Origin: Roseomonas indoligenes
GTDB lineage: Bacteria; Pseudomonadota; Alphaproteobacteria; Acetobacterales; Acetobacteraceae
Direction: 5' to 3'
DNA length: 64,000 nt
NCBI RefSeq assembly: GCF_017813365.1
Contig: NZ_JAGIZA010000003.1
Coordinates: 62,001-126,000 of the forward strand
Part shown: one piece after another, positions 925-14,045 of the stretch
Position numbering within the stretch: position 1 is the stretch's first letter
How the letters are laid out: every line of letters begins with the position of its first letter
Notes under the pieces: model-generated
Seen by the model: the letters and a program-made list of their open reading frames with translations, nothing else
What the model was told of the DNA's origin: nothing
Database searches by the model: none
Made by a program: the position numbers and the translations under genes

Positions 925-2934
925 TCAGGCGAGGCGGCTGACGGCGCGGCGCGGCGCTCCGGCGACGGTGACGCGGGGGCCGGCGACAGCCGCTGGTGGC
1001 AGTGTGACGGGCCCGGCAGCGGGCGCTGCTTCTGGCAAGTCCATGAGAGGCCGCGGCGGCGCCACCTCAGTCCCGGAATAGCCAGACGAAACCCGCCCGA
1101 CCTCCTGGTTCAGCTTCAGGCCGAAATGCTGCAGCCCGGCCAGCGCGGCGTAGGCGTAAACCCGGCAGTCGAGCGCCTCATTCCGACGGCCCGGTAGTGG
1201 TTCCCAGACCCGGTAGCGGGCGCCGCCCGCGTCTTTCAGGACCGATCGCTCTGCGAGCAACTGGCTGAAGTAGGCCGCGTCCCGGTCCTCCGGGAAGTGC
1301 ATGAAGCCTGGGCCGTGCTCGTCTAGGTTAAGTCGGTGCCGGACGACGTCCTTCGCCGTATTAACCCCGATGATAACGGGCTTGAAGGATGCCTTCATGC
1401 GCGCCAGCGGCTTCTTCGTCGGCCAGACGGGGGATCGCTGCCCGGGCCGGGCGCTCTCTCCCTTGATGGCCCAAATCTTCCGGCCCAGCCTCGCCTTGGC
1501 GAATTCGTAGACCCTCTGCGTGTGGTGCCCGCCGCTGTCGCAGCAGCCCGCTGCCAGGCTGAAGAGCCGGCCATCCGCCCGCATCCACCGGCGCCGCAGG
1601 TACGGGTCGACCAGGTCGTTCCAGAAAGCGGGGGTGTCGAGGTCGCCCTCGATCGCCTCGTAGGCGACGGACCAGCTTTCCTCGTCCCGACCCCAGGCCA
1701 CAACCTCGATCTCGACCCGGTCGTCCTGGGTGTCCAAGCCAAAGGTCAGCACCGCGGCGCCGTCCGGAACCTCAGCGGGATAGACCTCGCGGCGCGCCAT
1801 GAGGCGGGCCTCGGCCAGCACCTTGTCCGCCCGCTCCTCGTAGGGCTCGCCCAGCACCAGGTTGTAGAAGGTCTGCCGCTCCAACGGCTTGTCCATGACC
1901 CGGAGCCACTCGCGGACGAGCTCGGCCCAGGCCGCATTCGTGTTCAGGCTATAGCCGGCCCAAATGTGGAACCCGGCGTGCCCACCCTTCGGGTTCGTCG
2001 CCCGCCACTCGCCGCCGGCGACCATGTCGGCCTTGTCGGCCTCGTCGATGATGCAGCCGTTCATCCGGCACACGTAGTGCGCCGTCTCCGGCCGCCCGTT
2101 GCCGTCCTCGTCCCGGGCCCACTTGATCCCGTAGGGCGTGTCGCGGCCGCCCCACTCCAGGAACTGCCGCTCGCCGCAATGCGGGCAGGCCACAAAGAAT
2201 CGCCGCTGGTCGCTCTCGTTCCAGGCGTCCTCAATGCGGGACTGCCCCTTCACGGTCGGGGTCGAGCCCAGCACGATCTTCCGGTTCCAGAAGGTCTCGC
2301 TGCGCTTCTTGCCCAGAGCAATCTGGTCGCCTTCACTGCCGGCGCCCGCCTTGGGATAGCCGTCCACCTCATCGAAGAGGATCACTCGCGCCGTGATGCG
2401 CCGGAACCCGCCCGGGCTGTTCGCCCCGACAAAGGAGACCGACGAGCCATTCCGGAAGACCCGCTTCAGCAGCTTTTGCTTGCTGTCCTTAGCCTTCAGA
2501 TCGCCGGCGATCTCGGCCAGCACCTCCGTGTCTCGGAGCATCGGCTCGATCTCGGTCGAGCTGTAGTCCTCGGCATCCTCGACGCGCGGCTGAACCACCA
2601 GGATCGGAGAAGGGTCCTGGTGGATGAAGTACCCGACGACGTGGTCCAGCACCTTCGTGTAGCCCACTCGGGCCGACTTCATCACGGTGACCTGCGTCAC
2701 GGAGGGGTCCGTGATCGCGTCCATGATACCGTCCTGGTACGCATAGGCCCGGAACCGGCCCGTCTGGGCGCTGGTCTCTCGGGAAAGGACCGCGTAGCGG
2801 GACGCCCATTGGCTCAGGGTGAGCCGCGGAGGCGGTGCCAGGTTGGCCCGGCGGGCCTCCAGCAGCCGCGTGCGTAGTTCCTGCGCCCCCTTGGCGTAGC
2901 GCCGCGCCTCAGTGGGCTCCAAGGGCAACGTCAC
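925..2934 (-). CDS. Terminase large subunit (gpA / GpA-ATPase family)
   Basis: This 669-residue protein is the packaging motor and cos/headful nuclease. Visible parts are an N-terminal ATPase with a Walker A-like segment VMKSARVGYTK near residue 84, a Walker B-like ILFDEVDGYP near 185, and the LGSTPTVKG coupling motif near 222. A CPHCGERQFLEW zinc-type element near 250 is characteristic of the lambda gpA family. The C-terminal nuclease fold starts with VLTFGLDTQDDRVEIEV near 390. Length is normal for the family (about 640-700). The start overlaps the small-subunit gene by 26 bases, which suggests coupled translation. The C-terminus is Pro/Ala-rich. Confidence 0.95.
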   Translation of the reverse strand: MTLPLEPTEARRYAKGAQELRTRLLEARRANLAPPPRLTLSQWASRYAVLSRETSAQTGRFRAYAYQDGIMDAITDPSVTQVTVMKSARVGYTKVLDHVVGYFIHQDPSPILVVQPRVEDAEDYSSTEIEPMLRDTEVLAEIAGDLKAKDSKQKLLKRVFRNGSSVSFVGANSPGGFRRITARVILFDEVDGYPKAGAGSEGDQIALGKKRSETFWNRKIVLGSTPTVKGQSRIEDAWNESDQRRFFVACPHCGERQFLEWGGRDTPYGIKWARDEDGNGRPETAHYVCRMNGCIIDEADKADMVAGGEWRATNPKGGHAGFHIWAGYSLNTNAAWAELVREWLRVMDKPLERQTFYNLVLGEPYEERADKVLAEARLMARREVYPAEVPDGAAVLTFGLDTQDDRVEIEVVAWGRDEESWSVAYEAIEGDLDTPAFWNDLVDPYLRRRWMRADGRLFSLAAGCCDSGGHHTQRVYEFAKARLGRKIWAIKGESARPGQRSPVWPTKKPLARMKASFKPVIIGVNTAKDVVRHRLNLDEHGPGFMHFPEDRDAAYFSQLLAERSVLKDAGGARYRVWEPLPGRRNEALDCRVYAYAALAGLQHFGLKLNQEVGRVSSGYSGTEVAPPRPLMDLPEAAPAAGPVTLPPAAVAGPRVTVAGAPRRAVSRLA

Positions 2935-3457
2935 GGGTCAGGGCCTCCAGGGCCTCGGTTACGACCTCAGTCAGGACCGCCTGGACTTCGGCAATCGTCT
3001 TGCACCGGTGGATCCGGGGCGCGTGCTCGGCAGGGATCGACAGGAGCTTCGACCGCACGGCCGCGTACTCCTTACCTACCGCCTCGGCCGTGTCGGCGAT
3101 CAGGGCCACCGCCTTGACCTCACGCTCGTATTCCACCTGCCGCAGCCGGGCGATGAAGCTGTCCCGGTGCCGTTCGGCGTCGGCGCGGGTCTCAAAGACT
3201 CCCTCAGCCTCGACCAGCTTCAGCGCATCTCGCGCATCGGCCGCTGCGGATCCGTCCACGCTCTCCCGTGCAACCGGCGCCCGGGTTGCGGGTGCATCCC
3301 GGTTCTGGCGGTCATTCAGCCACAGATCGAACGACGCGACGCGGACTTCGCCGGTCGCGGTCAGCGCGATGCGGCCAGCGCGAATGTGCTTCTCCAGCGC
3401 GGGCCGGCTTATGCCAGCGCGGCGCGCCGCTTCAGACCGCGAAAGCGTGTCCTGCAC
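2909..3457 (-). CDS. Terminase small subunit-like DNA-binding protein (Nu1 type)
   Basis: A 182-residue protein starting at a GTG. The N-terminus contains SRSEAARRAGISRPALEKHI, a winged helix-turn-helix of the Nu1/MerR type, followed by a wing (GRIALTATGEVRVASFDLWL). The middle is rich in Ala, Asp and Arg and probably coiled. The C-terminal half resembles the region that contacts the large subunit. It lies immediately upstream of, and overlaps, the large-subunit gene. It probably recognises the packaging site on phage DNA. The function is inferred from the domain plus position. Confidence 0.78.
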   Translation of the reverse strand: MQDTLSRSEAARRAGISRPALEKHIRAGRIALTATGEVRVASFDLWLNDRQNRDAPATRAPVARESVDGSAAADARDALKLVEAEGVFETRADAERHRDSFIARLRQVEYEREVKAVALIADTAEAVGKEYAAVRSKLLSIPAEHAPRIHRCKTIAEVQAVLTEVVTEALEALTRDVALGAH

Positions 3458-3625: not shown

Positions 3626-4243
3626 CTACCCCCTCCTCGTCCTCATCGCCTCGGCCAGCCTCTGCCTGAAAGCGGGCACCATGACCGCCTGCGCGGTCCG
3701 GACCACCTTGCGCTGAAAGCCGAAGCGAGGCCGATACTTCGCCACCTGCTTGAACGCGACGAGCAGCCTAGGCCGTCCTGCCTTCTCGCCTGAGCCCTTC
3801 GGGACAGGACGACGCTGCCAGATGCCACCGACGCCGCCAACGACGCCTGAGAAGGTGTCCTTGCGGTTTGAGACCCGCCGCACCCCGCCCCGCGGGATGT
3901 TGCCGTATTGGTCGCGCTGGATGGCCGCAGGCAGCACCAGCGCCCGCTTACGAGGGGTGCGTGTGCCGCCTGTCTCCTGGATGGCCAGATACTCGGCCTG
4001 CTTGGTCTTCACAAAGACCCGCGCCGTCAGGTCCGTCTTCCGCGCCGCCTTGATTGTCACCGCGTTGCGCGTGAACGGCGTGGGCTTCTCGAACACCCTG
4101 GGCAGGTCACGCGAGACGGCCACCCTGGCAGCTTGCGCGCTGTCCGTGAGCGCCCGGGCCATGGCGTAGGGCGCCTGCTTCCTGGCCACGTCGTCCAGGC
4201 CCCGGGTCATGCTGCGCATGTCGATGCGGACGACCGGGTTCAT
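3626..4243 (-). CDS. Minor tail protein-like (gpZ type) protein
   Basis: A 205-residue basic protein. The N-terminus (RSMTRGLDDVARKQAPYAMA, then ALTDSAQAARVAV) resembles minor tail protein Z and related tail-completion proteins, which begin with a helix pairing and an Ala-rich loop that calls for regular AMA..LTD helices. The middle carries RTPRKRALVLPAA and a Gly/Arg-rich stretch. The ATG at 4243 overlaps the TGA of the upstream P-loop gene (ATGA). Its place ahead of terS is unusual for a tail gene, so the assignment is tentative; a head-maturation or DNA-associated role cannot be excluded. Confidence 0.45.
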   Translation of the reverse strand: MNPVVRIDMRSMTRGLDDVARKQAPYAMARALTDSAQAARVAVSRDLPRVFEKPTPFTRNAVTIKAARKTDLTARVFVKTKQAEYLAIQETGGTRTPRKRALVLPAAIQRDQYGNIPRGGVRRVSNRKDTFSGVVGGVGGIWQRRPVPKGSGEKAGRPRLLVAFKQVAKYRPRFGFQRKVVRTAQAVMVPAFRQRLAEAMRTRRG

Positions 4244-4551
4244 CCGGCCTCGACCTGCACCCACCGGCAATCCGCCCCGGTCTCCCGCGCGAGTTCACGC
4301 CACCCAGCCCGGTCGTCGGCCTCCAGATTCCAACCCACCGCGCAGACACTGACGTCGGCCTGGAGCAGTGTCCGGGCCATGGCGAAGGTGGTCAGGGTTA
4401 CGACCCACTCATCGACTTGGTGCTGCAGCAGGCTCCGCACATGGTCCCGAGCGATCATAGCCTGCCCGCGGTAGGCGACCAGCGCCTCGGCGATCAGGCT
4501 CTTCCCCGTTTCGGGGCCGCCGGCGATGACAGTGAGGACCGGCCGGGCCAT
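4240..4551 (-). CDS. Small P-loop ATPase/kinase-like protein
   Basis: A 103-residue protein starting MARPVLTVIAGG. It has a Walker A motif GGPETGKS at residues 11-18 and a short Rossmann-like body (SVCAVGWNLEADDRAGW), so it looks like a truncated AAA_33/zeta-type kinase. Start 4551 is chosen because GGAGG lies 6 bases upstream; an in-frame ATG at 4602 is inside a terminator hairpin. It is the first gene after the predicted late promoter and terminator. The substrate is unknown. Zeta-like and polynucleotide-kinase-like roles are both possible. Confidence 0.6.
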   Translation of the reverse strand: MARPVLTVIAGGPETGKSLIAEALVAYRGQAMIARDHVRSLLQHQVDEWVVTLTTFAMARTLLQADVSVCAVGWNLEADDRAGWRELARETGADCRWVQVEAG

Positions 4552-4564
4552 CCGATCCTCCGGC

Positions 4565-4598
4565 AAAAGAAAAGCCCGGAAGCCAAAAGGCCCCGGGC
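4565..4598 (-). terminator. Intrinsic terminator upstream of the late genes
   Basis: On the minus strand a GC-rich stem pairs GCCCGG (4598-4593) with CCGGGC (4579-4574), with an inner GCC/GGC stem and an AAAA/TTTT loop. It is followed at once by TTTTCTTTT. It lies between the regulator gene at 4646-5290 and the first late gene. This is a textbook rho-independent terminator that late transcription would have to pass. Confidence 0.8.
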
Positions 4599-4620
4599 GC
4601 AAAACGACGAATTACGGAGA

Positions 4621-4649
4621 AACATGGAATAACCCCCTCGCCGCGTCAA
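4621..4649 (-). promoter_or_regulatory. Predicted late promoter (TTGACG, 17 bases, CATGTT)
   Basis: Minus-strand TTGACG at 4649-4644 is spaced 17 bases from CATGTT at 4626-4621. The -35 box overlaps the stop codon of the regulator gene. The expected transcript start, near 4614, is only about 16 bases before the terminator stem. A promoter followed directly by a terminator is the layout of lambda PR'-tR'. No experimental support is available from the sequence. Confidence 0.5.
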
Positions 4650-5290
4650 GATCCTTTTCGGCAGTAGTCCGCAGGGATGCGGTAGTGATCCACCAGCACC
4701 CGCAGCGCCTCATGCAGCAGTCGCATCCGGTCAGAGGCCCACTCGTCCTCTCCGCAGACCCCGATAACCACGGCTCGCATCCGCACGGGCAGGGCATCCA
4801 GGGCCGCCAGGTATTTCCGCTCGGCGTCGTTGCGAGCATCAACCGCCTCGGCCGTGCTCCCTTTTCCGCCCCGCTCCCCGTATTCCGCCGTGACTTTGGG
4901 GCGAGTGGTCGCAGCGCGGTACTGCGCCCGGAACATCATCCCCGCTCGCCAGAGCATGTCTACGAGCTGTCCCCGGGCATTGTAGGCATCCAGCACGCAC
5001 TCCACGGTATAGCGGCGGGCAATCGCCTTGACCGCAGCCTTACTTCCTGGCGCCGGCAACAACTCGATTTCCGTGGTTTCGATCGGGCGATGGCTGCCTG
5101 CTCCGACAACCTTACCTTCCGGATCCCTCACCTCTTGCCCGAGGTCTGGGGGGGTGCGGGCCTCCTTCAGCGCCCGCTTCCGAAGCACAGCTGTCTTTTC
5201 GGACGGCCAGAGGGATGCGGGCGTCAGCGCCGGCTTACCCCTCTTCATGGCCTGACTGCCCTCAAGTGCCTTCATAGCGCCCTTCCTCAT
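4646..5290 (-). CDS. DUF6456-like phage regulator, candidate late-gene activator or antiterminator
   Basis: A 214-residue basic protein. The N-terminal 60 residues are Lys/Arg/Pro-rich. The C-terminal half (RYTVECVLDAYNARGQLVDM, then MMFRAQYRAA, then a helix pair ending LHEALRVLVDHYRIP) resembles from memory the DUF6456 helical domain of alphaproteobacterial regulators. It is the last gene of the leftward early operon and ends on a predicted promoter and terminator, the position of Q or RinA in other phages. The role is inferred from place and fold. In-frame ATGs at codons 6 and 15 are alternative starts. The first ATG overlaps an upstream stop as ATGA. Confidence 0.5.
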   Translation of the reverse strand: MRKGAMKALEGSQAMKRGKPALTPASLWPSEKTAVLRKRALKEARTPPDLGQEVRDPEGKVVGAGSHRPIETTEIELLPAPGSKAAVKAIARRYTVECVLDAYNARGQLVDMLWRAGMMFRAQYRAATTRPKVTAEYGERGGKGSTAEAVDARNDAERKYLAALDALPVRMRAVVIGVCGEDEWASDRMRLLHEALRVLVDHYRIPADYCRKGS

Positions 5291-5393: not shown

Positions 5394-5672
5394 CTAGGAC
5401 GGATAGGTCACGCCCTCCTTCATCGCCTGTTCAAGGTCTTCGGAAATCGAAGTCAGATGGACGAGATACCGGCCCTGCCCCTTGCGCCGGGCGGCCCGCC
5501 AAGCGTTGGCCCGCGACCGCCAGACGCCGTTGATGCCGCGCACGCCGTAGCGCTCACGCCCTAGGCGCCGGATGTTCGGGCCGTTGCCCTCTCCCCGATC
5601 CCAGGTTGTCAGGCTCTGTCCGCGCCATGCGACCGTGAAAAGCCGCCAGGCGGTTGGGTCTTCCACCGTCAC
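5394..5672 (-). CDS. Hypothetical phage protein (92 aa)
   Basis: This gene starts at a GTG that overlaps the stop of the preceding gene (GTGA). The protein is rich in Arg and Trp, with WRLFTVAWRGQSLTTWDRGE at the N-terminus and RANAWRAARRKGQGRYLVHL in the middle. No family is recognised. The basic surface suggests nucleic-acid contact, but that is a guess. A 100-base coding-like stretch without a start codon follows it (see findings). Confidence 0.6.
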   Translation of the reverse strand: MTVEDPTAWRLFTVAWRGQSLTTWDRGEGNGPNIRRLGRERYGVRGINGVWRSRANAWRAARRKGQGRYLVHLTSISEDLEQAMKEGVTYPS

Positions 5673-6118
5673 AGCGACCCCTCCCGTTCCCCTTCCCGCC
5701 CCACCTCAGCCTTCAGGGCCATTCCGTCAGGGCTGAGCCGCCAATACGCCGACCCTTCCATATCGTTCTCGGCCAACCCCATCCCCCGCATCTCCTCCAG
5801 CATCTCCACCTGCTCCGTGAGGGAGCGCGTCCAGCTGCCGTCGCCGGGGAGCCAGGACAGGGCGCGGCGTTGGGGTTGGGTGAGGGCGGCGAGGCGGATC
5901 ATGGAGCGACCCTCGCGCGGAGAGCCGCGCCGGCCGGGGGTGAGGCGGGCATGAAGGCCTCGCCATCCCTCGCCAGCGTCGTAACCACTCTCAGCCAGCT
6001 TCATGGTGCGGAGGCGCCGCACCGCCATCCGCATGCCTCGGGGGAAATCGCCTCGCCATTCAGTCGTCAGCCACAGCAAGGCGCGCTTCTGAGCGGGCGT
6101 GAGGTCAACGACGGTCAT
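5669..6118 (-). CDS. Two tandem paralogues joined in frame by a likely one-base frameshift
   Basis: This 149-residue frame contains two copies of a small domain. Copy B begins MTVVDLTPAQKRALLWL at 6118. Copy C begins with the ATG at 5902 and reads ALTQPQRRALSWLPGDGSW. Copy B should end in RLTPAGAALRARVAP and a TGA overlapping the ATG of copy C. A run of five G at 5936-5940 instead shifts the frame so that B continues into C. With one G fewer the normal end and ATGA overlap return. It may be a real fusion, a mutation or a read error. Both copies resemble the gene at 6115-6351. The fold is probably a winged helix, inferred from helix-helix-strand spacing. Confidence 0.65.
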   Translation of the reverse strand: MTVVDLTPAQKRALLWLTTEWRGDFPRGMRMAVRRLRTMKLAESGYDAGEGWRGLHARLTPGRRGSPREGRSMIRLAALTQPQRRALSWLPGDGSWTRSLTEQVEMLEEMRGMGLAENDMEGSAYWRLSPDGMALKAEVGREGEREGSL

Positions 6119-6351
6119 GCGCCCTCCATCTCGGCTTTGAGGGCTAGGCCGGCGGAAGTGAGGCGCCAGACCCAATCCCCGCTTCCAAGACGCGCCTGAG
6201 CCAAGCCAAGCATTCGGAGCCGGCGCAGAACGCCACGGTTGGGCCGAGGTGCCATGTCGGCGTCCAAGATGGACCCACGCCACCCCCCATCCCCCGGCAG
6301 CCACTCCAGCGCCCGCACCTGCGCGGGGGTGAGGTCTTCCAGGCGGGTCAT
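6115..6351 (-). CDS. Small winged-helix-like protein, tandem paralogue A
   Basis: A 78-residue protein: EDLTPAQVRALEWLPGDGGW, then a helix with RGVLRRLRMLGLAQARL, then WVWRLTSAGLALKAEMEG. The pattern (L-T-x-x-Q-x-R-A-L-x-W, R-x-x-M-G-L-A, W-R-L-T-x-x-G-x-A-L-K-A-E) recurs in the next two gene copies and more weakly at 26,486-26,731. It is linked by ATGA overlaps on both sides. It is probably a DNA- or protein-binding wing domain. The function is unknown. Confidence 0.75.
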   Translation of the reverse strand: MTRLEDLTPAQVRALEWLPGDGGWRGSILDADMAPRPNRGVLRRLRMLGLAQARLGSGDWVWRLTSAGLALKAEMEGA

Positions 6352-6569
6352 GTCCTGTCCCCATCTGCGCAGAGGTCGCGGACGTTCAGGAGGGCGTCGC
6401 GAAGCTTGGCAAGACCACCCAAGACGACTGCATCCTGGCCCTGCTCACGCATGAGGTCCGACAGGACGGCCACGTAGTCGGCAGCGCTCACTTCCCCGTC
6501 GAACCCCAGCGCCTCCCGTATCCGCAGCCGGTGGTAGGCTGTTGGGTCGGTGATTGTGCCGTCGGTCAT
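6348..6569 (-). CDS. Hypothetical phage protein (73 aa)
   Basis: This starts MTDGTITDPTAYHRLRIREA and continues with an acidic helical body ending LLNVRDLCADGDRT. The start at 6569 is chosen because its ATG overlaps the stop of the upstream membrane-protein gene. No known domain is seen. It is soluble and mostly helical by composition. Confidence 0.6.
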   Translation of the reverse strand: MTDGTITDPTAYHRLRIREALGFDGEVSAADYVAVLSDLMREQGQDAVVLGGLAKLRDALLNVRDLCADGDRT

Positions 6570-6760
6570 GAGCGGGTGTTCCGGTGAAAGGCGATGAGAA
6601 CCAGAGCCAGCCCACAGAGGGCCATCCACCCGGCGAACAGCGCATAGGCCAAGCGAGGCAGGCCGGCGATGATGGCGGCCAGCTGCAACAGCCCGAGGAT
6701 GCACAGGTGCCAGAGGAAGTAATCGGCCCAGGCCTGGGCGGCGGCGTAGATGCGGGTCAC
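6566..6760 (-). CDS. Small membrane protein with two hydrophobic segments
   Basis: A 64-residue protein from a GTG at 6760 that overlaps the upstream stop as GTGA. Two hydrophobic stretches are clear: FLWHLCILGLLQLAAIIAGL near 18-37 and LAYALFAGWMALCGLALVLI near 40-59. A short basic tail follows. The size and topology resemble a holin, but the gene sits in the early operon far from packaging, so a superinfection or membrane-tethering role is equally possible. Confidence 0.6.
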   Translation of the reverse strand: MTRIYAAAQAWADYFLWHLCILGLLQLAAIIAGLPRLAYALFAGWMALCGLALVLIAFHRNTRS

Positions 6761-6939
6761 CCCCTCACCTCCTTCACCCGCCACAGCCCGACGATGCGGG
6801 AGCGGTCACGGAAGGCGTGCCCGGCCTCGCGCTGGTGGGCGATCAGCGAGGCGGCGCCGTCCGCGGTGACCGGGCCTATGACGCCCTGAGCGGCTGACGG
6901 GGGCTGGACCACCAGCCAGGTGTCGCGGTGGGGGGTCAT
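6757..6939 (-). CDS. Hypothetical phage protein (60 aa)
   Basis: A 60-residue protein with RDTWLVVQPPSAAQGVIGPV at the N-terminus and a basic C-terminal half. No family is recognised. It overlaps both neighbours by four bases and so is probably translated with them. Confidence 0.55.
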   Translation of the reverse strand: MTPHRDTWLVVQPPSAAQGVIGPVTADGAASLIAHQREAGHAFRDRSRIVGLWRVKEVRG

Positions 6940-7283
6940 CGCGTCATGGCCTCCAGCCCGCGGTCTGCCTTGGTGGCGAAGTGCGGACGGAGCCGACCTC
7001 CCCCTTTCTCAGCCAGACGCGACGCGACCCACTGCCACAGATAGATCTGCCGGAAAGGCGGGGTGCTTCCCCGACCACTCCGCCCCCAGCGATACCGGAG
7101 CATCGCGCTGCGGTAGTCGAACCAGCAGTGGTCACAGAGTTCCGGGGCAATCTGCCGGCGGTAGCGTCTGGGCGGCAGCGGATGGCACCAGATCGACTGA
7201 CGCACCTCGTCGTCGTCCATGACCGTCGCGGCGTCGATGAGGCGGTCACAGACACCGCAGGAGAGGAAGGTCAGCCGGAGCAT
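6936..7283 (-). CDS. Zinc-finger-like hypothetical protein
   Basis: A 115-residue protein with two Cys pairs, CGVC near residue 9 and CDHC near residue 50, spaced as a zinc-ribbon-like module. The segment between them is acidic (MDDDEV) and then basic (PPRRYRRQI). The C-terminal half contains Tyr/Trp-rich RQIYLWQWVASRL. The stop overlaps the next start (ATGA). It probably binds DNA or RNA through a zinc knuckle; the specific role is unknown. Confidence 0.6.
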   Translation of the reverse strand: MLRLTFLSCGVCDRLIDAATVMDDDEVRQSIWCHPLPPRRYRRQIAPELCDHCWFDYRSAMLRYRWGRSGRGSTPPFRQIYLWQWVASRLAEKGGGRLRPHFATKADRGLEAMTR

Positions 7284-7741
7284 TCGGCACCTCCCGTCAG
7301 CACCAGGGGCGCCGGCGCATGGTCAGGCCCGAGGGCCGCAGCGCGCTCGGCATGCACCAGCTCCAGCTTCACCGTGTTGCAGATGCCGTCAGCCAGCTTC
7401 GCGGCGGCCAGGGCCTGCTTGGGCGAGGTCTTACCCTCCCTGAGAGAAGCCAGTTCCGCGAACAGGATGGCCCTGAGGCCGGCAGAGGTCATGGTGGTAG
7501 GCGATGGGCGGGGCGGCATCACAACGACCTCCTGCGTGGGCTGGGGCTGCGTGGCGGGCTGGGTAGGTGGCTGAGGGGCGGATGGGGCCTCACGCGCTGG
7601 CAGCAGCCCCTGCTGAGAGAGCGATACCTTCAGCAGCACGATGTCGCGGGCCGGCAGCGGGACCTTCCGGGCAACCTCGGCCTCGGTGTAGCCCTGCCTG
7701 AACAGGTCCTTCGCCTGCTCGCGCCGATCTTCCAGGGTCAC
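7271..7741 (-). CDS. HTH-containing phage protein (156 aa)
   Basis: This is read from a GTG at 7741 that overlaps the upstream stop as GTGA. The N-terminal segment EQAKDLFRQGYTEAEVARKV is a helix-turn-helix of the kind found in small terminases and regulators. It is followed by a Pro/Gln-rich linker and a C-terminal helical region (SLREGKTSPKQALAAAKLAD). It may be a transcription regulator. Longer upstream reading in this frame is unlikely, because it would overlap the neighbouring gene almost entirely and uses atypical codons. Confidence 0.6.
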   Translation of the reverse strand: MTLEDRREQAKDLFRQGYTEAEVARKVPLPARDIVLLKVSLSQQGLLPAREAPSAPQPPTQPATQPQPTQEVVVMPPRPSPTTMTSAGLRAILFAELASLREGKTSPKQALAAAKLADGICNTVKLELVHAERAAALGPDHAPAPLVLTGGAECSG

Positions 7742-7983
7742 GGCCGCCCCCTCCCCAGCGTCTCGCCCACCTGAAGCTGCTCCTGCGCCGCCTTCAGGGT
7801 GCGGGGGTTCGTGTACATGGCGAACTTCCCGTCGAGCTGCAGGCAGACCATGCCGCTGCTGCGCTCCTCGGCCGTGGCGCCGCGGGTCAGCAGGTCGGCC
7901 GCGCGGTTGATCTGGTGGATGTCGTCCCAGGTCTTGCCGGAGGTGCTGGGGTGCTTGCCCCGGGTGCGGTGCTGGGGGCGCAT
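7738..7983 (-). CDS. Hypothetical phage protein (81 aa)
   Basis: The ATG at 7983 overlaps the stop of the HNH-like gene (TGATG). The protein has SGKTWDDIHQINRAADLLTR and SSGMVCLQLDGKFAMYTNPR, with a regular alternation of helix and strand. No family is recognised. The order suggests a replication-associated accessory. Confidence 0.55.
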   Translation of the reverse strand: MRPQHRTRGKHPSTSGKTWDDIHQINRAADLLTRGATAEERSSGMVCLQLDGKFAMYTNPRTLKAAQEQLQVGETLGRGRP

Positions 7984-8552
7984 CAGGCGGCGCCCCGAAC
8001 GACACTTCGCATGCATGCGAACGGGGTCACGCCACTCTCTTCCAAGTAGGCGACCAGCGCCTTGAGCTCGTCGAGGGTGGCATCCGACTTCAGTCGGTTG
8101 GCGCGGTAGCTGATGACCCGCACATTGCTGGGCACGTAGCCCAGGGACGGCACGAGGCGGTCCAGAGTGGGGCTGTTGTCGCGCTGCCCACCAACCACGA
8201 GCGCCAAGCCCAGGACAGGACATGCGGCCGGGACAGCGATGTCCGAGGCCGAGAGCGTGAAGGCGATGCCATGGCGAGCGGCCCGATATCGCGCTTTATC
8301 GAACAGGTGCCGCGCTACGTCCGACTGGCGCCGCTCAGCGACCCGCAGCCGCTCGGCCGCCCGCTTTTCGGGGTTCGCAGCGCGGTAGGCCGCCTTCCTG
8401 GTGCGCTCGTAGGACCGCCTCTGATCTCTCTCCGCCCGGTCGCCATCCCAGGGGGACATAAAGGACATGTCTATAGACACATGTCCTTTTTGTCCCTTCG
8501 TAGGGACATGGGGACATTCTGGGGACATGTCCCTTTTGTCCCGGATGTTCAT
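7983..8552 (-). CDS. HNH-like endonuclease
   Basis: A 189-residue protein. The C-terminal part contains ACPVLGLALVVGGQRDNSPT, then LDRLVPSLGYVPSNVRVISY and RANRLKSDA. This S-x-D-R-x-x-P-x-x-G-Y-x-x-x-N-V-x-x-I-S-x-x-A-N-x-x-K pattern is the variant HNH fold of phage nucleases, with Asp/Asn in place of the central His. The middle third (ERTRKAAYRAANPEKRAAER) is a basic helix. The N-terminal 40 residues are encoded by a repeat cluster, so they look like a late addition. The ATG at 8552 overlaps the ATPase stop (ATGA). Confidence 0.65.
   Translation of the reverse strand: MNIRDKRDMSPECPHVPTKGQKGHVSIDMSFMSPWDGDRAERDQRRSYERTRKAAYRAANPEKRAAERLRVAERRQSDVARHLFDKARYRAARHGIAFTLSASDIAVPAACPVLGLALVVGGQRDNSPTLDRLVPSLGYVPSNVRVISYRANRLKSDATLDELKALVAYLEESGVTPFACMRSVVRGAA
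8453..8542. repeat. GGGACAT repeat cluster, candidate replication origin
   Basis: In 90 bases there are four direct copies of GGGACAT (8453, 8503, 8511, 8522). There is also an exact inverted repeat with 11-base arms AAAGGACATGT/ACATGTCCTTT around an 8-base loop (8460-8489). An 18-base direct repeat with one mismatch, ACATGTCC(T/C)TTTTGTCCC, occurs at 8479 and 8525. The cluster lies in the 5' part of the HNH-like gene, right beside the replication ATPase gene. It looks like a set of iterons. Confidence 0.6.
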
Positions 8553-9709
8553 TGGCCGTTCTCCATGCTGACTGCCCAGACCAAATCTCCCCACTTGCCG
8601 ACCTGGCGCCCGGCAATGAGGTCCCGAGAGGCCCGGTCAAACGCCTTTTTCTGGGCGTCCGGCTTGGCCTCGGTGAATGCGCGCTGGTAGGCATGCTCCC
8701 GCCAGTCCTTGATGGACACGCAGGGCATGTGCGGGGGCACGAACTCATTAACCGGTGGGATGCGGCCCTGCCGGGCGATCAGGTCGTGCAGGATGTCGAG
8801 GGCCTGCCCCATCTGGCCTGAGGGCTTCTTCGGCTTGCCCTTCGGCGCGTCGGTGGGATCGATGAGGCAGGTGGTAATATCGTCCCCGTCCTCGTCCTGG
8901 CCCAACACCACCCGGCGCAGGTTGAAGCCCAGCTTGTCCCCATCCGCGTCGTCCTTCGCCTTGGCGACCCGCATCAGACGCGGGCCGTCCTCCTCGGGGC
9001 GACTGATCTCCAACTCGCAGTCGCACGCGCCGTGCAGGCTGTTGTGGCCGCGCATGCCGCGCGTCACGTCCTTGCCAGTGTGGTGGATGACCGTGACGTG
9101 GGCGCCGGTCGCGTGACGGACATCGGAGAAGATGGACAGGATCTTGCCCATCCCCTCGGGGCCGTTCTCGTCTCCCCCGCCCATGGCCCGGCTCAGGGTG
9201 TCGATCAGGATCCACTGCGCGCCGACTGCCATGGCCGCCGCGATCAGCTCGGCCACGGCCTGCGGGTCGTCGTGCAGGTTCAAGGGCTGGGCGAGGTAAC
9301 AGAAGTCCGGGCAGTCCCCGAACTCGTCCGCCAAGGCCTGCAAGCGCTTGTCCGCTCCGCCCTCACCTTCCAGAAAGCCGTAGAGCACCTTCGTGCGCTT
9401 GACCCGCCGGCCGAAAACCTCGCGTCCTTGCGCGGCAGCGTAGGCGATGTGGCTGCCCATGAAGGACTTGCCCGACCCAGGCGGCCCGTAGATCGCGCTG
9501 AACTCGCGGGCGTAGAAAAGCCCCTTGACGATGTATTCCCGCGTGGTGGACTGCCGCGCCTCACCGATTGTCTTGACCAGCAGGCGGCCGACACGCAGCC
9601 CGCCTTCCTCAGCAACGGCCTTGATCGCCTCAGCCATGACGGCCGGGTTCGTGGCCTGGGTCGCCAGACGCGCCCGCTTCTCGGCCTCGCCCCACATGTC
9701 GGCGCTCAT
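8549..9709 (-). CDS. RepA-like RecA-fold helicase/ATPase
   Basis: A 386-residue protein. It has Walker A GPPGSGKS at residues 75-82, Walker B QWILIDTLSRAM near 165-176 and the TVIHHTGKD sensor near 206-214, in the order of the RSF1010 RepA/AAA_25 family of hexameric replicative helicases. The C-terminal part is a helical domain, MPCVSIKDWREHAYQRAF, that probably binds partners. It is likely the phage replicative helicase or its loader. The gene overlaps both neighbours by four bases (ATGA on each side). Confidence 0.85.
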   Translation of the reverse strand: MSADMWGEAEKRARLATQATNPAVMAEAIKAVAEEGGLRVGRLLVKTIGEARQSTTREYIVKGLFYAREFSAIYGPPGSGKSFMGSHIAYAAAQGREVFGRRVKRTKVLYGFLEGEGGADKRLQALADEFGDCPDFCYLAQPLNLHDDPQAVAELIAAAMAVGAQWILIDTLSRAMGGGDENGPEGMGKILSIFSDVRHATGAHVTVIHHTGKDVTRGMRGHNSLHGACDCELEISRPEEDGPRLMRVAKAKDDADGDKLGFNLRRVVLGQDEDGDDITTCLIDPTDAPKGKPKKPSGQMGQALDILHDLIARQGRIPPVNEFVPPHMPCVSIKDWREHAYQRAFTEAKPDAQKKAFDRASRDLIAGRQVGKWGDLVWAVSMENGQ

Positions 9710-10320
9710 GCAGCGCGGCCTTTCTCAATGAGCTTGGCAAGGCGGATGAGGGCGGCACCGTGTTTGCAGGACCAGCGCCAGGCGGCGAGGGAACCGAAGT
9801 TAGGTCCGGCAGCCTCGGTCGGCGCCTCCCGCGGCGCACCGGCCGGCTTGGCCGACCAAGCGCCGCTGGTCAGATCGACCTTCACCAGCAGGCGAGCACC
9901 TGCCCACTCCATCAGCGCCCAACTCTCGCCGCCCTTGATGCGCCGATCGAACAGCGTGAGCAGGACGAAGGGGCCGTCCAGGGCACAGGACCACTCGGCC
10001 AGGATCCATTCCGGTTCGCCGCGCTCCAAGGTCTGCAGGAAGGCGACCGCATAGTCCCGGGCCGTCCCGATCCCGAGCCGGATACGGTCCGCACGATCCT
10101 CGCGCATTCCGGCCTCGATCCAGGCGACGACATCCGGCGTGAAGGCGGGGAATTGCTCGATGACCGATACCGGCACCTGAGCGTCCCGGGCTGACAGGAG
10201 CCCGCGAACCTTTGCGAGCAGGCGCATATCCTCTGCCATGGGCAGCGGCACGTGCTGGCCGCCGACGTAATCGTCCGCGACCTGCGCCAGCCTGCTCAGA
10301 GTGGATGTGCCCCCGCTCAC
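9706..10320 (-). CDS. Hypothetical phage replication-module protein (204 aa)
   Basis: This starts at a GTG at 10,320, seven bases after the GapR-like gene. It has an N-terminal helical region (LAQVADDYVGGQHVPLPMAE), then a central strand-rich segment with PEWILAEWSCALDGPFVLLT and DRRIKGGESWALMEWAGARL. The C-terminus is basic and ends IRLAKLIEKGRAA. No family is recognised. Translational coupling to the helicase gene suggests an accessory role such as primer or origin recognition. Confidence 0.55.
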   Translation of the reverse strand: MSGGTSTLSRLAQVADDYVGGQHVPLPMAEDMRLLAKVRGLLSARDAQVPVSVIEQFPAFTPDVVAWIEAGMREDRADRIRLGIGTARDYAVAFLQTLERGEPEWILAEWSCALDGPFVLLTLFDRRIKGGESWALMEWAGARLLVKVDLTSGAWSAKPAGAPREAPTEAAGPNFGSLAAWRWSCKHGAALIRLAKLIEKGRAA

Positions 10321-10327
10321 CTGGATC

Positions 10328-10585
10328 TCACATACCCAGAGCGCGGCGGTAGAGATCGAGCAGGGTCTCTTGCTCTTCGACCTCAGCAGGCTCCTGCTTC
10401 CGCTGACGGATGATCTGGCGGATCACCTTCACGTCGAAGCCGGCACCCTTGGCTTCGGCCAGGATGTCCTTCTGGTCCTCGGAGAAGGCCTTCTTCTCCT
10501 CCTCCAGCTTCTCCCACCGCTCGATGATAGAGCGCAGGCGCTCAGCGGCGATGCCGCCCACATCAGTGTCGCTTTCGTCAGCCAT
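10328..10585 (-). CDS. GapR-like DUF2312 nucleoid protein
   Basis: An 85-residue protein with the family signature LRSIIERWEKLEEEKKAFSE, DQKDILAEAKGAGFDVKVIR, QIIRQRKQEP and the C-terminal EEQETLLDLYRRALGM. GapR clamps overtwisted AT-rich DNA ahead of forks and stimulates topoisomerases in Caulobacter. This copy has the paired coiled-coil and basic second helix. The start is at 10,585, where the ATG overlaps the upstream stop region; an earlier in-frame ATG lies inside the previous gene. It is a phage-borne copy placed next to the replication ATPase, so a role in phage replication is likely. Confidence 0.85.
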   Translation of the reverse strand: MADESDTDVGGIAAERLRSIIERWEKLEEEKKAFSEDQKDILAEAKGAGFDVKVIRQIIRQRKQEPAEVEEQETLLDLYRRALGM

Positions 10586-10808
10586 TGGAGCCTCGCTTGA
10601 AGGGGATGAACCGCTCGACACGCATCAGGCCGAGGGCGTTGATGACGCGCTCGCTGGGGTCGCGCCGGCCGCTGATCGTCTCGGAGACAACGGAGACCGG
10701 GATGTTATGGCGCTGCGCCCAGCGAGACTGGCCACCGGCCATTTCGCACGCATGCGAAAGTCGGTTTCGGAGGTCACCCGACGTGAGGGCCTGGGCGTCC
10801 TCGGTCAC
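10578..10808 (-). CDS. Small HTH DNA-binding protein (Cro/YdaS type)
   Basis: A 76-residue protein from a GTG. The segment QSRWAQRHNIPVSVVSETIS followed by GRRDPSERVINALGL is a Cro/CI-type helix-turn-helix. The N-terminal LRNRLSHACEM is a helix. It probably binds an operator or origin. It overlaps the neighbours by 4 and 8 bases. Confidence 0.7.
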   Translation of the reverse strand: MTEDAQALTSGDLRNRLSHACEMAGGQSRWAQRHNIPVSVVSETISGRRDPSERVINALGLMRVERFIPFKRGSNG

Positions 10809-11719
10809 CCCCGACCTCGCATCTCGGAAGCGAGGCGGTCCACCTGATCCTTAAAGACCACGTTCTTGCCGCTCGCCTTGAAAATGGCGATGAACTGCGC
10901 TTCGTCCGCGCCTACGCCCTCGTAGCGGCCAAGGAACAGGTGGCGGGACCCATTCCGCGTCATCTGCCGGAGCACCACCGGGTAATCGTCTCCGATCACC
11001 GGCTTGATCTCCACGCGGAGCGTGAAGGTGGGCTCGTAGGGGGTGTGGCTAGTCAGCCGCAACCCATCCAGACCAAGCCGGTACGAACCGGCCGAAGTGG
11101 CGCCCGCGGACGGCAGCGACGCGCCCAGCACCACGTCTTGCGGGGCTTCGAACGCCACCTTCAAGGAGAAGCTGGGCGCTCCCAGATTGGCGAGCTGGGC
11201 GAGGACGCCCTCACCTGCCGCGATGAGGCTGTTACGGCTGATGTCTTTGCCATAGCTGCAATGGGTCGAATCCGGCGCCTTCTGGGCAGCCTCAACCTGA
11301 GCCGCGATGAGCCCTCGAATTTCTTCTCGGATGTCCTCGCGGCTCCGGAGTTCCTTTGCTATCTCCTCCGCAATCCGTTCGCCCGCGGCGATCTGCGCGA
11401 AAGCCGCCTGATAAACAGGATCCAGGAACAGCGCTTGCAGCCGATTGTGGATCGGTGTCGCCTCGGCCTCAGCCCGGTCGTGTGCGTCGAGCAGATGCCC
11501 GAACCGCTCACGGAACCAAGGCTGGGCGCCGATCCATTCCATGTAGCCGGCGTCCGCCAGCATGTCCTCAACCGGCTTTCCCTTGTATTTGCCGAAGGGC
11601 ACGACATTATCGGCCATGTTCAATCCGCTCCTGACGGGTTGTGCACGACGCCCGTTCCCGTTCGCAGCGGGGCGGTCGTTTCCGTTTGAGGGGATGACGT
11701 GCGCGTCACTGTCGGACAT
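10805..11719 (-). CDS. Phage protein with exonuclease X-type PFGKYKGKP motif
   Basis: A 304-residue protein from the ATG at 11,719, preceded by GAGGGG. Residues 36-60 contain VVPFGKYKGKPVEDM and a Tyr/Trp-rich segment (YMEWIGAQPWFRERF), the pattern of the DUF3820/exodeoxyribonuclease X C-terminal domain that binds nucleic acid. A long helical middle (EEIAKELRSREDIREEIRGL) is followed by a strand-rich C-terminus. ATG 11,617 is an alternative start just before the motif. Frames extending further upstream run into a small separate gene, so they are not used. Confidence 0.6.
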   Translation of the reverse strand: MSDSDAHVIPSNGNDRPAANGNGRRAQPVRSGLNMADNVVPFGKYKGKPVEDMLADAGYMEWIGAQPWFRERFGHLLDAHDRAEAEATPIHNRLQALFLDPVYQAAFAQIAAGERIAEEIAKELRSREDIREEIRGLIAAQVEAAQKAPDSTHCSYGKDISRNSLIAAGEGVLAQLANLGAPSFSLKVAFEAPQDVVLGASLPSAGATSAGSYRLGLDGLRLTSHTPYEPTFTLRVEIKPVIGDDYPVVLRQMTRNGSRHLFLGRYEGVGADEAQFIAIFKASGKNVVFKDQVDRLASEMRGRG

Positions 11720-11879
11720 GCGGCTTGCCCCTCTCATCCACATGGACAGGCGGCAGGCTCTGCGCGCGGCGAAGCTCGTTTGCCCTCTCCAGCGCGTGCA
11801 CGTAGCAGCGCTGTTCCTGTCCCACACGGACGGCGATCTCGTCGGGGCAGCCCGGAACGTCACACCGGAGACCGCTCAT
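11706..11879 (-). CDS. Small cysteine-containing phage protein (57 aa)
   Basis: It begins MSGLRCDVPGCPDEI and has a Cys at residue 25 with a following His (QRCYVHALE). The four potential metal ligands C6, C11, C25 and H28 form a compact zinc-knuckle-like unit. It overlaps the RuvC-like gene upstream by ATGA and the next gene by 14 bases. It is shorter than common gene-calling cut-offs. Confidence 0.65.
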   Translation of the reverse strand: MSGLRCDVPGCPDEIAVRVGQEQRCYVHALERANELRRAQSLPPVHVDERGKPHVRQ

Positions 11880-12367
11880 GCCGCAAAGGCCGCCAGCCCG
11901 TGCATGCGGCCGGATCCATGCAGCGCGATCAGCGCTGCCTCCGCCCGCCCGTCATCCTTCACCCGGGCGAAGGAGGCCGCGGCGCCCGGCCAAAGTTGGC
12001 ACGCGCGTGCCCGGGACGCGCTCTTGTCCCGCCCCAGGCTGAGGTCGCGCTTCCAGACCTGCGGACGCACCATCGTGTAGGCGAGCCCCGCCGCGGCCAG
12101 AGCGCCCTCGATCTGCCCGAAGGAGCGCCCGAGATTGAAGGACTGCACCGCGCCGTCGTTCGGCATCGGCCCTACGTCCTCCAGAAAGGCGTGGACGACG
12201 GAACGCTCCCGCAGAAAGGCGGCCAGCACCGATGGAACCAATCGGGTGCGCTTGCCCTCCCCGACCTTAATCTTGACGGTCGGCAGATCGCGCACCTCAA
12301 CCAGGTGCCCGTCGTCGGTCATCCAAGCGATCGCGCCGGAAGCGCCGGGGTCGATGCCAACGATCAC
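11876..12367 (-). CDS. RuvC-like Holliday junction resolvase
   Basis: A 163-residue protein starting at a GTG that overlaps the upstream TGA. It has the RNase H-fold signature VGIDPGASGAIAWM with Asp7, a second acidic FLEDVGPMPNDG near 70, and a C-terminal DDGRAEAALIALHG with the clustered acidic residues of RuvC. It resolves recombination or replication junctions before packaging. The family normally has about 165-170 residues. Phage RuvC copies of this type are common in alphaproteobacterial phages. Confidence 0.85.
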   Translation of the reverse strand: MIVGIDPGASGAIAWMTDDGHLVEVRDLPTVKIKVGEGKRTRLVPSVLAAFLRERSVVHAFLEDVGPMPNDGAVQSFNLGRSFGQIEGALAAAGLAYTMVRPQVWKRDLSLGRDKSASRARACQLWPGAAASFARVKDDGRAEAALIALHGSGRMHGLAAFAA

Positions 12368-12654
12368 TGCACAACACCCCGCAACCGGAACACGCCCACC
12401 GGGCGGGAATGGCAGGTCTTGCGGCTGGAGCGCTCGTGCCGAAGCAGTTCCCAGTCCTTCGCCTGGAACACCGCCCCCATCACCCGCGGATCCACGTCCT
12501 CGGGCGGCGGGCACTTGGCGCGCACGTCGTTGATGGTGACCGTCCGGCCTCCGAGACCGAGCAGGCGGGCATGGGCGCGGGCCTGGGCCAGCCATTCGGC
12601 GCGGTGCGCCTCGAAGTGCGGAAGGACGGTGTCCTCGAAGAGGGTGGTGCTCAT
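12364..12654 (-). CDS. Conserved-looking phage protein (96 aa)
   Basis: It begins MSTTLFEDTVLPHFEAHRAE and contains TINDVRAKCPPPEDVDPRVM and GAVFQAKDWELLRHERSSRK. It ends with TCHSRPVGVFRLRG. The repeated CPPPxDVDPRVMGAVF block is a recurring phage signature seen near nuclease genes, recalled from similar phages and not checked here. It may be a DNA-binding or nuclease partner. The start at 12,654 overlaps the small upstream gene (TGATG). Confidence 0.55.
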   Translation of the reverse strand: MSTTLFEDTVLPHFEAHRAEWLAQARAHARLLGLGGRTVTINDVRAKCPPPEDVDPRVMGAVFQAKDWELLRHERSSRKTCHSRPVGVFRLRGVVQ

Positions 12655-12773
12655 CAGCGCCACCACCAGAAGCGCCGAATGCGCCACTCTTGAGCACGAC
12701 GAACGGCCTCCTCAGCGCGCGCGGTCCAAACCCGCTCACGCCAGCTGGCGAAGCGTTCCCATAGAGGCTTCAT
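12654..12773 (-). CDS. Very small basic, Trp-rich phage protein (39 aa)
   Basis: It begins MKPLWERFASWRERVWTARA and ends with Arg/Trp repeats (RIRRFWWWR). The ATG overlaps the upstream stop as ATGA and the stop overlaps the next start as TGATG, which supports real translation. The function is unknown. The amphipathic basic composition suggests nucleic-acid or membrane contact. Confidence 0.5.
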   Translation of the reverse strand: MKPLWERFASWRERVWTARAEEAVRRAQEWRIRRFWWWR

Positions 12774-13054
12774 GCGCTCCCTTTCAGGGCATCAAGCTTC
12801 GCGCGCACCAGGGCCTGGCGAGCGTCGAGCTGCCTCATCTCGTCTTGCATCCGCGCCTCGTAGGCGGCCTTGATGCGATCCTGCTCGTCGGCCCAGAGCC
12901 GCTTCGGCTCGCCGTAGAAGATCGCCTTCGCGCGCCGCGCAGACACGACGCAGGCGCGGGCCGCGCGGTCGATCGCGCCGTCTAGCCCGTGCTGCGGACG
13001 GTCCAGCAGGACCATCTCGCGCAGCAGCGTTCGACCGCTGAGCGCGCTATTCAT
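12770..13054 (-). CDS. Hypothetical helical phage protein (94 aa)
   Basis: It starts MNSALSGRTLLREMVLL at 13,054, where the ATG overlaps the TAG of the preceding gene. It is strongly helical, with RMQDEMRQLDARQALVRAKL near the C-terminus forming a likely coiled coil. The charge is mixed, with many Arg and Ala. No family is recognised. Confidence 0.55.
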   Translation of the reverse strand: MNSALSGRTLLREMVLLDRPQHGLDGAIDRAARACVVSARRAKAIFYGEPKRLWADEQDRIKAAYEARMQDEMRQLDARQALVRAKLDALKGSA

Positions 13055-13289
13055 GGCTTCCGAACCTTTGGACGGAATTTCCAACATCTGGGACAAGAGG
13101 CTCTCCATGCTTCAGGGCATGGAGAGCGAGCGTTTCACCATTCAGCAGCGTAGGCAGACCCGGGGGCTGGCACCCCTGGGTCGTCTGCTGTTGCGCCTGT
13201 TGACGCGCCTCCAAAGCAGTTCGGCAGCCGGCGGTGGGCTGGGCGGGGAGCCCGGCGTCGACGGCGGCGGGGGTAAAGGCGGCGGCCAT
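13047..13289 (-). CDS. Hypothetical phage protein (80 aa)
   Basis: An 80-residue protein: MAAAFTPAAVDAGLPAQPTA, then a Gln-rich stretch EARQQAQQQTTQ and a C-terminal LVPDVGNSVQRF. No domain is recognised. It lies directly after the HTH-rich regulator with no gap, so it is in the same transcript. Confidence 0.45.
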   Translation of the reverse strand: MAAAFTPAAVDAGLPAQPTAGCRTALEARQQAQQQTTQGCQPPGLPTLLNGETLALHALKHGEPLVPDVGNSVQRFGSHE

Positions 13290-14045
13290 TCAGGCAGCCC
13301 GCCGGGTGATGATGGGAGCGCCGTCTCGCTCCTTGCAGTCGGTGCAGACGAACCACCGGGGCGGATCCACGATGTCGGCCGGCTTGCGGCAGCACATGCA
13401 GAGGCGAGTGGGGACGGGATCCACGACGGTGGGCGCCTCCACCTTCTGCGGCAGTGCCGCGATTGCCGCCTTAGTCCGGCAGCGGTAGGGGATATGCTCT
13501 CCCTGCGCCCGCATCGCATTGAGAGCGTCGTGGACCGTGGCTTCCTTGCAGCCCAGACGTCGCGCAATCTCGCGCGTAGGCAAGGTCAGCGGGTCCAGAT
13601 AGAGAGCCTTCACCGCCTCGTAATCGACTGTAGGTGCGGGGCCACGCCGGGGCTTGGCTGGGACATTTACGCCAGCCTGGCGCTGAGCATGGAGGATCTT
13701 GCTGACGGCCCTCTCCGTGATGCCGAGAGAGGCTGCGATCTGCTTCTGCACGACCCCGTCGCGTGCCAGCTGGGTAACGGCGCGCCAGTCGAGCTTGCGC
13801 GGCGCCCCCGGCATATCCTGCAGAGGAAGGTCTATGCCCTTGCGCCGAGCCTTGGAGGCGTAGTCGTAAACGGCGCTGATGCTGATGCCCAGCTTATCGG
13901 CGATGGCCGAAGCAGCCCAACGCGCCTTATACAGTCGCGCGACCTCAGCCTCACGCGGTGTGAGAAGTGCGTCGGCTGCCTCGGCGGAAGTGCCGTGGGG
14001 GTTGGCAGCCGACGCGGCCGGACTGGAGGAGGTTCCGTCCGGCAT
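13290..14045 (-). CDS. Multi-HTH phage regulator with C-terminal Cys motifs
   Basis: A 251-residue protein with three repeated helix-turn-helix segments. These are REAEVARLYKARWAASAIAD with KLGISISAVYDYA near 32-64, VTQLARDGVVQKQIAASLGI near 90-108, and ALYLDPLTLPTREIARRLGC near 147-166 followed by KEATVHDALNAMRAQG. The C-terminus has CMCC and CTDC motifs (LCMCCRKPADIV, WFVCTDCKER), which suggest a zinc site. It probably binds DNA at several half-sites as an early regulator. It is the third gene of the leftward operon. Confidence 0.7.
   Translation of the reverse strand: MPDGTSSSPAASAANPHGTSAEAADALLTPREAEVARLYKARWAASAIADKLGISISAVYDYASKARRKGIDLPLQDMPGAPRKLDWRAVTQLARDGVVQKQIAASLGITERAVSKILHAQRQAGVNVPAKPRRGPAPTVDYEAVKALYLDPLTLPTREIARRLGCKEATVHDALNAMRAQGEHIPYRCRTKAAIAALPQKVEAPTVVDPVPTRLCMCCRKPADIVDPPRWFVCTDCKERDGAPIITRRAA

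Follow-up and report, generated by a model that had tools for sequence, protein, structure and literature searches.

A possible Q-type late-gene switch with a DUF6456/GafZ-family regulator in a temperate phage of Roseomonas indoligenes

We analyzed a stretch of 64,000 nucleotides from Roseomonas indoligenes (the window) and observed, between the early and late genes of a temperate phage, a regulator gene, a promoter, a pause sequence and an intrinsic terminator in direct succession. This arrangement is probably a Q-type late-gene switch that uses a processive antiterminator of the GafZ/DUF6456 family; its transcription and activity are untested. In the best reading of the data the switch works like Q with a regulator from the DUF6456/GafZ family, not from the Q protein families, the activity being inferred. 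What we observed are the parts with their order and spacing, the conservation of this set in two phage clades, the GafZ-type kinship of the regulator and the fact that no further promoter fits ahead of the first late ATG.

Organization of the phage

The phage was read from gene calls over the first 17 kb of the window and the 40 kb to its left. It has a lambda-like early operon on the minus strand that extends down to position 4646. The late block, also on the minus strand, begins at 4551 and covers about 36 kb, ending roughly 31.8 kb to the left of the window; plus-strand calls within it are a single called gene at about −24.5 kb and short ones at about −19.2 and −12 kb as well as among the last genes. 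The genes relevant here are:

14576..15304, plus strand: repressor-like gene, facing the early operon (gene call and sequence, named by eye)
5394..14500, minus strand: remainder of the early operon, ahead of the regulator gene (gene calls)
8549-9709, minus strand: AAA_25 helicase-like protein of the early operon (Pfam)
4646..5290, minus strand: DUF6456/GafZ-family gene, 214 aa, proposed antiterminator, "the regulator" (PF20057, 22.3 bits; phrog_31762, 4.2e-14)
4240..4551, minus strand: first late ORF, AAA_33/polynucleotide-kinase-like (Pfam AAA_33, 24.8 bits, below the cut-off; phrog_505, 3e-7)
3626..4243, minus strand: minor tail/tail completion gene (phrog_1924, 5.6e-47)
2909..3457, minus strand: terminase small subunit, TerS (phrog_57, 4.1e-20)
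925..2934, minus strand: terminase large subunit, TerL, of the gpA type (GpA_ATPase and GpA_nuclease above the Pfam cut-off)

TerS, TerL and the tail completion gene were named via Pfam or PHROGs; for the portal, capsid, sheath and integrase-like genes, visual inspection is the only basis. A preliminary description of this DNA had made the DUF6456-like gene the last of the leftward early operon, and the gene calls indeed put the end of the operon at 4646. Its statement that the packaging genes come next is nearly right: TerS and TerL do follow, but only after the AAA-like ORF and the tail completion gene. Two minor observations concern the neighboring genes. An early protein (13290-14045, minus strand) has three helix-turn-helix stretches (HTH_23, 62 bits), and an endonuclease-like gene contains a cluster of GGACATG/CATGTCC repeats (8460-8533) with hairpins on both strands.

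Promoter and terminator

The elements between the regulator gene and the late block are:

4649-4644, minus strand: −35 element TTGACG, overlapping the TGA of the regulator gene; identical in the related virus L002
4626..4637, minus strand: GGGGGTTATTCC block, candidate protein-binding element, identical in L002; no binding data
4626-4621, minus strand: −10 element CATGTT, spacer 17, three of six consensus bases
4598..4608, minus strand: consensus pause G-10 N6 T-3 G-2 C-1 G+1, with C-1 at 4599 (about +16); it includes the start of a conserved GCGCC
4598-4574, minus strand: terminator hairpin GCCCGG-G-GCC-TTTT-GGC-TT-CCGGGC, −18.7 kcal/mol
4573-4565, minus strand: terminator T tract TTTTCTTTT, eight T in nine

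Transcription is predicted to start at about 4614, and the hairpin begins 16 nt past this point. A 55-nt segment with the hairpin gave a fold of −20.1 (z −1.97; 7 of 200 shuffles were as good). Hairpins with a dG of −12 or below and at least six T in nine occur at four sites of the 64 kb on both strands, and the 4598-4565 terminator is the second strongest; the strongest (16084-16113, plus strand) lies on the repressor side. On the late strand, at a weaker threshold, the next site that lies between called genes is found at −13.8 kb, with several others inside genes. A simple consensus scan lists neither the TTGACG-17-CATGTT promoter, whose −10 element matches only three of six bases, nor the 4598-4565 terminator, whose stem is interrupted. 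Both had been proposed in the preliminary description. The TGA does lie within TTGACG, coordinates and 17-nt spacer check out, and an intrinsic terminator about 16 nt past the predicted start is confirmed by folding, shuffles and the site scan.

The T tract is followed by GGAGG and the ATG of the first late ORF at 4551. Since it ends 13 nt before this ATG, no promoter fits between them, and RNA for the first late ORF must pass the terminator. Upstream of the ATG the reading frame stays open as far as a TTG at 4602, which precedes the hairpin; this TTG shows no ribosome site and is a less probable start.

The GGGGGTTATTCC block is located mostly between the −35 and −10 elements, its last base being the first of the −10. 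It is present in a single copy in the 104 kb searched and is common to the window and L002 only; it is not conserved in the prophage locus L030 or in the Komagataeibacter clade described below, and the spacer blocks differ between clades. No inverted repeat was found in seven promoter stretches with an exact seed of 6 nt. The published GafZ element shares only five exact bases per arm, so that this search would miss it.

Pause sequence at the predicted leader

The putative pause position is one base before the hairpin begins. This sequence was noticed first and tested afterwards. T-3 and G-2 are consensus pause bases. G-10, Y-1 and G+1 have been described as such (PMC4604602), and the pattern scanned was G-10 N6 T-3 G-2 Y-1 G+1. 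At the sequence level, a full consensus pause is present at +15 to +17 in 11 of 12 phages from two clades, with a background of 0.7-1.0% per 3-nt interval. These are not 12 independent cases, since phiKX1 and phiKX2 are identical over the aligned leader. Counted from the first −35 base, GCGCC has index 49 in ten of the 12, 48 in L048 and 47 in L041; the motif is common in such DNA (0.3-0.9% of positions). The pause of L030/L041 is without G-10 and T-3. Loci G281 and G703 and the Rhodobacter phage RcRhea have neither GCGCC nor a full pause at this position.

We counted TTGAC, TTGTA, TTGAA and TTGAT as −35-like sites. Among 156 of them in a 57-kb region (both strands), the promoter at 4649 alone carries a pause at index 48-51, and no other site combines pause and terminator. 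In phiKX1 (50 kb) this combination occurs at two of 283 sites, of which one follows the DUF6456-like gene and the other lies at 46536.

The published GafZ half-site GCGCCCG recurs with the same letters at +15 in the window, in L002 and in L030. Because GCGCC equals the start of this half-site it may be a binding site, and a role as half-site instead of, or besides, a pause is not excluded; the data, being sequences, do not decide.

The regulator protein

The Pfam cut-off for DUF6456 is 26.3 bits; the regulators of the window (22.3) and phiKX1 (25.9) stay below it, those of L002 (30.4) and G496 (29.8) exceed it, and the L030 and G613 proteins have no match to this family. The PF20057 match was also obtained in the Caulobacter vibrioides control. 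In a Pfam scan of the window up to E 1 the regulator matches only DUF6456. The same scan (E <= 1) gave no match to the lambda Q, 21Q and 82Q families PF03589, PF06530 and PF06323, accessions taken from PMC7171158.

An hhalign comparison with a profile of 14 chromosomal DUF6456 proteins yielded Prob 97.0 and E 9.6e-11 (A5) and Prob 98.1 and E 1.2e-13 (A8) over about 140 columns, which ties the regulator to chromosomal GafZ-type DUF6456 proteins. Several of the 14 have, as judged by eye, a DnaA-like ORF just upstream, which parallels GafY beside GafZ. PF08299 has no match on the prophage contig and a single one in the whole genome (contig 3, 501-aa frame); whether it detects GafY is unchecked.

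The predicted fold is confident mainly for residues ~99-203 (mean pLDDT 62.9). Its best viral fold match is a phage DUF6456 protein (E 4.5e-6). Foldseek returned nothing at E <= 0.001 among solved structures, and the sequence profile found none of these at E <= 10. As to a sigma-like helix-turn-helix in the C-terminal part, a criterion for the GafZ/DUF6456 family, the top three solved structures are sigma region 4 domains with Z 5.0, 4.7 and 4.6 (65, 58 and 62 residues, rmsd 3.0-3.4), weak values, as Z < 8 may mean little.

Conservation in related phages

The uncultivated virus L002 has a regulator 69% identical to that of the window. From the −35 element to the T tract, 66 of 83 aligned positions are identical (80%), compared to 450 of 631 (71%) in the regulator gene and 397 of 591 (67%) in the tail gene. 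The promoter-to-terminator segment is thus more conserved than the adjacent genes. The L002 −10 element is TACATT with a spacer of 18. In a Pseudoroseomonas cervicalis prophage (L030, L041 and L050 are the same place) the regulator is 36% identical over 129 residues, TerS has no match, and a promoter TTGACT-16-TAGGTT precedes a terminator. The terminators of the window, L002 and L030 share their stem letters and have different letters in loop and bulge. In L002 and the P. cervicalis prophage the tail completion gene follows the cassette directly, without the AAA-like ORF. A nucleotide search of phages with window positions 3600-5800 gave no match.

A second clade comprises Komagataeibacter phages (phiKX1, phiKX2, L015, L042-L049) with TTGTAC-16-CATTAT and a terminator after the DUF6456-like gene; the −10 element is TAATAT in L048/L049 and CATTAC in L047. 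phiKX1 and phiKX2 come from Komagataeibacter xylinus NBRC 13772 and 13773, and PHAST classed them as "incomplete" and "questionable" (PMC8566455). The terminator stem carries compensating changes (G-C to A-T, and C-G to A-T at another pair), with one mismatch each in L042 and L044. Between phiKX1 and L042 the regulator is 82% identical at the protein level and the next 285 nt are kept (80/93 and 141/181 identical), whereas TerS has no real match and TerL matches over only 44 residues. Regulator and leader therefore travel together before different terminases. These phages also have about 190 nt of conserved non-coding DNA from terminator to terS (L010 6500-6690 and the same place in L042-L049), which is kept before unrelated terminases and could be a cos/pac site or a structured leader. 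Rfam gave no family at gathering score for window positions 1-17000, L010, L042, L002 and L030.

Survey and controls

We compared 12 chosen DUF6456-like loci with 170 other co-directional genes of the same regions. A hairpin score <= −10 within 140 nt of the stop codon was obtained for 9 of the 12 loci and for 17 of the 170 controls, a promoter score >= 8 near the stop codon for 9 and 7, respectively, and the combination of a hairpin <= −10 with a promoter >= 6 for 7/12 and 1/170. The loci were picked with knowledge of earlier outputs and are not independent, representing at most eight lineages: the window, L002 and G409, a genome of the same family, form one clade, and phiKX1, L042 and L048 another. 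Counted as eight lineages, six have the hairpin, five a promoter score >= 8 and four both. The six include G281, whose hairpin (~110-137 nt) is outside the scan range and was read by eye.

G281 (GC 38%) has TTGAAA-17-TATAAA and a hairpin in the same order, with its own terminase (TerS phrog_1482, TerL phrog_3717). In G703 a hairpin is followed by TerL. G496 and G613 have a hairpin without a good promoter and G762 has neither; in L053, L055, L056 and L069 the DUF6456-like gene overlaps a terS-like ORF (by eye) and no hairpin is present. Among 25 DUF6456-like loci displayed (21 of the 30 in one set and 4 of the 30 in another), only four have a hairpin with dG <= −12 after the gene. L007, L019, L024, L035, L038 and L062, for which a wrong frame had been taken, L040, without a stop codon in the reading, and L008 and L009 were left out of the inspected loci. 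Since some loci lack promoter or hairpin, the cassette is not universal in the DUF6456-like family. Absence of the arrangement in related phages had been named beforehand as grounds to refute the switch; it is present in the nearest relatives and a second clade, and absent in several distant DUF6456-like loci.

Proposed mechanism

We propose that RNA polymerase would start from the promoter that shares sequence with the 3' end of the regulator gene and pause at about +16 on the consensus pause. By default, the terminator would end transcription at a length of about 47 nt, short of the first late start codon. Once the early operon has built up enough DUF6456 protein, the protein would recognize the promoter region and load onto the paused polymerase. 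The modified polymerase could then run through the terminator and the late block of about 36 kb. Expression and binding data are lacking, and each step, from promoter use and pausing to binding, loading and read-through, is inferred.

The preliminary description had suggested a Q-type switch with lambda-like order. Anatomy, conservation and homology back this proposal, which is support and not proof. It had also spoken of a different protein family doing the same job. The relation of the regulator family to the GafZ antiterminator makes this claim more credible and, at the same time, less unprecedented. The GafZ link, the pause at about +16 and the conservation in other phages go beyond that description.

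The protein could instead activate initiation at the promoter, with a leaky terminator that only sets the level of late RNA and no antitermination. GafA was initially regarded as an activator that works via the omega subunit (PMC9638019), the −10 element of the window is weak, as in activator-dependent promoters, and the top three solved-structure matches correspond to the DNA-binding part, sigma region 4. We nevertheless consider this unlikely. GafZ, which is closer in its domain, has been demonstrated to act at the elongation stage; most polymerases should be halted by so strong a hairpin with eight T in nine, and the hairpin is maintained through compensating changes; and plain activation leaves the conserved pause sequence unexplained.

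Antitermination would be unnecessary if the hairpin merely ended the early transcript and the late promoters lay beyond it, in or after the first late ORFs. The TTGACG promoter would then be fortuitous, and it is in fact absent from the consensus scan list; moreover, the ~190 nt between terminator and terS in the Komagataeibacter phages would offer space. In the window, however, only 13 nt separate the T tract from the first late ATG. A −35-like sequence is found at the same place in L002, L030 and the Komagataeibacter clade, and promoter scores >= 8 near stop codons are rare in the controls (7/170), which makes this explanation quite improbable. That a leader RNA or a host factor, and not the DUF6456 protein, decides on passage through the terminator is hardly tenable: a terminator directly before a ribosome-binding site is also typical of attenuators, but no Rfam family reached gathering score in the sequences scanned (window 1-17000, L010, L042, L002, L030), the leader of about 16 nt ahead of the hairpin is too short for a second structure, and the element follows DUF6456-like genes before unrelated terminases.

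Comparison with known systems

Tran and Le report that Caulobacter crescentus GafZ moves along with polymerase and Nus factors and allows terGTA and rrnB T1 to be read through, an element between −10 and −35 being required; predicted GafZ structures are described as bearing no likeness to known antiterminators (PMC11150451). By profile comparison, GafZ (which acts with GafY) and the C-terminal part of Rhodobacter GafA belong to the same family as the regulator, and GafZ lets polymerase pass terminators ahead of a phage-like late cluster (PMC11150451). The regulator of the window, in contrast, sits in a phage with integrase, replication and late genes, beside its own putative target promoter, and no GafY-like gene was found in the PF08299 scan. 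The terminator is about 16 nt past the start in the window and after the first gene in the GafZ system, and GCGCC lies in the transcribed region, whereas the GafZ element lies between −35 and −10.

In lambda the regulator gene is the last of the early operon, and the terminator is much farther from the start than in the window. Lambda Q, 21Q and 82Q, with PR' and tR', share with the window a late promoter directly after the regulator, a terminator ahead of the late genes and a promoter-proximal pause, which the window matches at the sequence level (PMC6606751, PMC7171158). The pause of a Q-type switch is expected near +14 to +17. The regulator has no sequence relation to the Q families in the Pfam scan, and the late block differs in that it opens with an AAA-like ORF, tail completion and packaging genes. 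Q needs a −10-like element in the initial transcribed region (PMC6606751). Only weak candidates for such an element at +1 to +6 are present in the window, L002 and L041, none of them convincing in the window. AlpA of Pseudomonas aeruginosa has its binding element between −10 and −35 and a terminator downstream, and it requires a −10-like sequence at −1 to +5 (PMC9371919). The Komagataeibacter-type phages may resemble it in this respect, with CATCAT or TACCAT at +1 to +6 in seven of eight scanned, but AlpA is of another protein family and regulates a bacterial lysis operon.

Publications exist on Q-type switching as well as on GafZ antitermination. In the open-access literature searched, mostly abstracts, we found no account of a true phage in which a DUF6456 protein serves as late switch and has pause and terminator next to its gene. 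To date, the function of the DUF6456/GafZ family has been established only in gene transfer agents, and the phage family is listed as unknown (phrog_31762, DUF6456); the present proposal gives it a testable function and joins the Q-type late control of gammaproteobacterial phages with the GafZ control of gene transfer agents. The loading step of GafZ is open, and the arrangement in the window suggests that loading could take place at the consensus pause around +16. The cassette, which fits promoter, pause and terminator into 85 bp, is a compact natural template for asking by what means an unrelated protein prevents termination. Gene transfer agent regulators could also have a simple origin in a phage late switch that was inherited. 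As a tentative generalization, which may well prove wrong, DUF6456/GafZ could be a further, unrelated Q-type class in alphaproteobacterial temperate phages, loading at the ~+16 pause of a promoter that overlaps the end of its own gene, with GafZ and GafA of gene transfer agents as domesticated descendants.

Other DUF6456-like genes

The chromosomal relatives L011-L027 (except L015) and L031-L039 were considered as phage switches and dropped, because no phage late genes were seen in their 1.5-kb flanks. L015 carries the phage cassette. L011-L014, L016-L018, L020-L023 and L025-L027 lie beside non-phage genes, without a promoter-terminator cassette, and are possibly domesticated copies. Further DUF6456-like genes with small neighbors are L054, L080 (G613) and L064 (G496); in L054 and L064 strong hairpins follow the gene and the promoters are poor. 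A tblastn search of phages with three other DUF6456-like proteins gave no match.

Gp44 of RcRhea was considered as a relative on account of a viral fold match (E 0.16), equated with gp44 from its length of 172 aa, and gene order. The profile comparison gave Prob 0.4, and gp44 was therefore not counted. RcRhea remains among the 12 loci; its scored promoter is not the TTGACT one. Its genome (L120) contains TTGACTTTTAGAACCGNNNCCGGCTCTT twice. The copy at 35252 directly follows gp44, the gene ahead of a phrog_1924 tail gene, and the copy at 17688 stands before gp19; GGCTTGATCCT comes after both. The pair looks like a two-site late promoter class, gp44 not having been shown to be a DUF6456 relative. 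Finally, gp20 of the Acidithiobacillus phage AcaML1 (L121 5905-6432), whose host is outside the Alphaproteobacteria, has a weak DUF6456 match of 21.9 bits.
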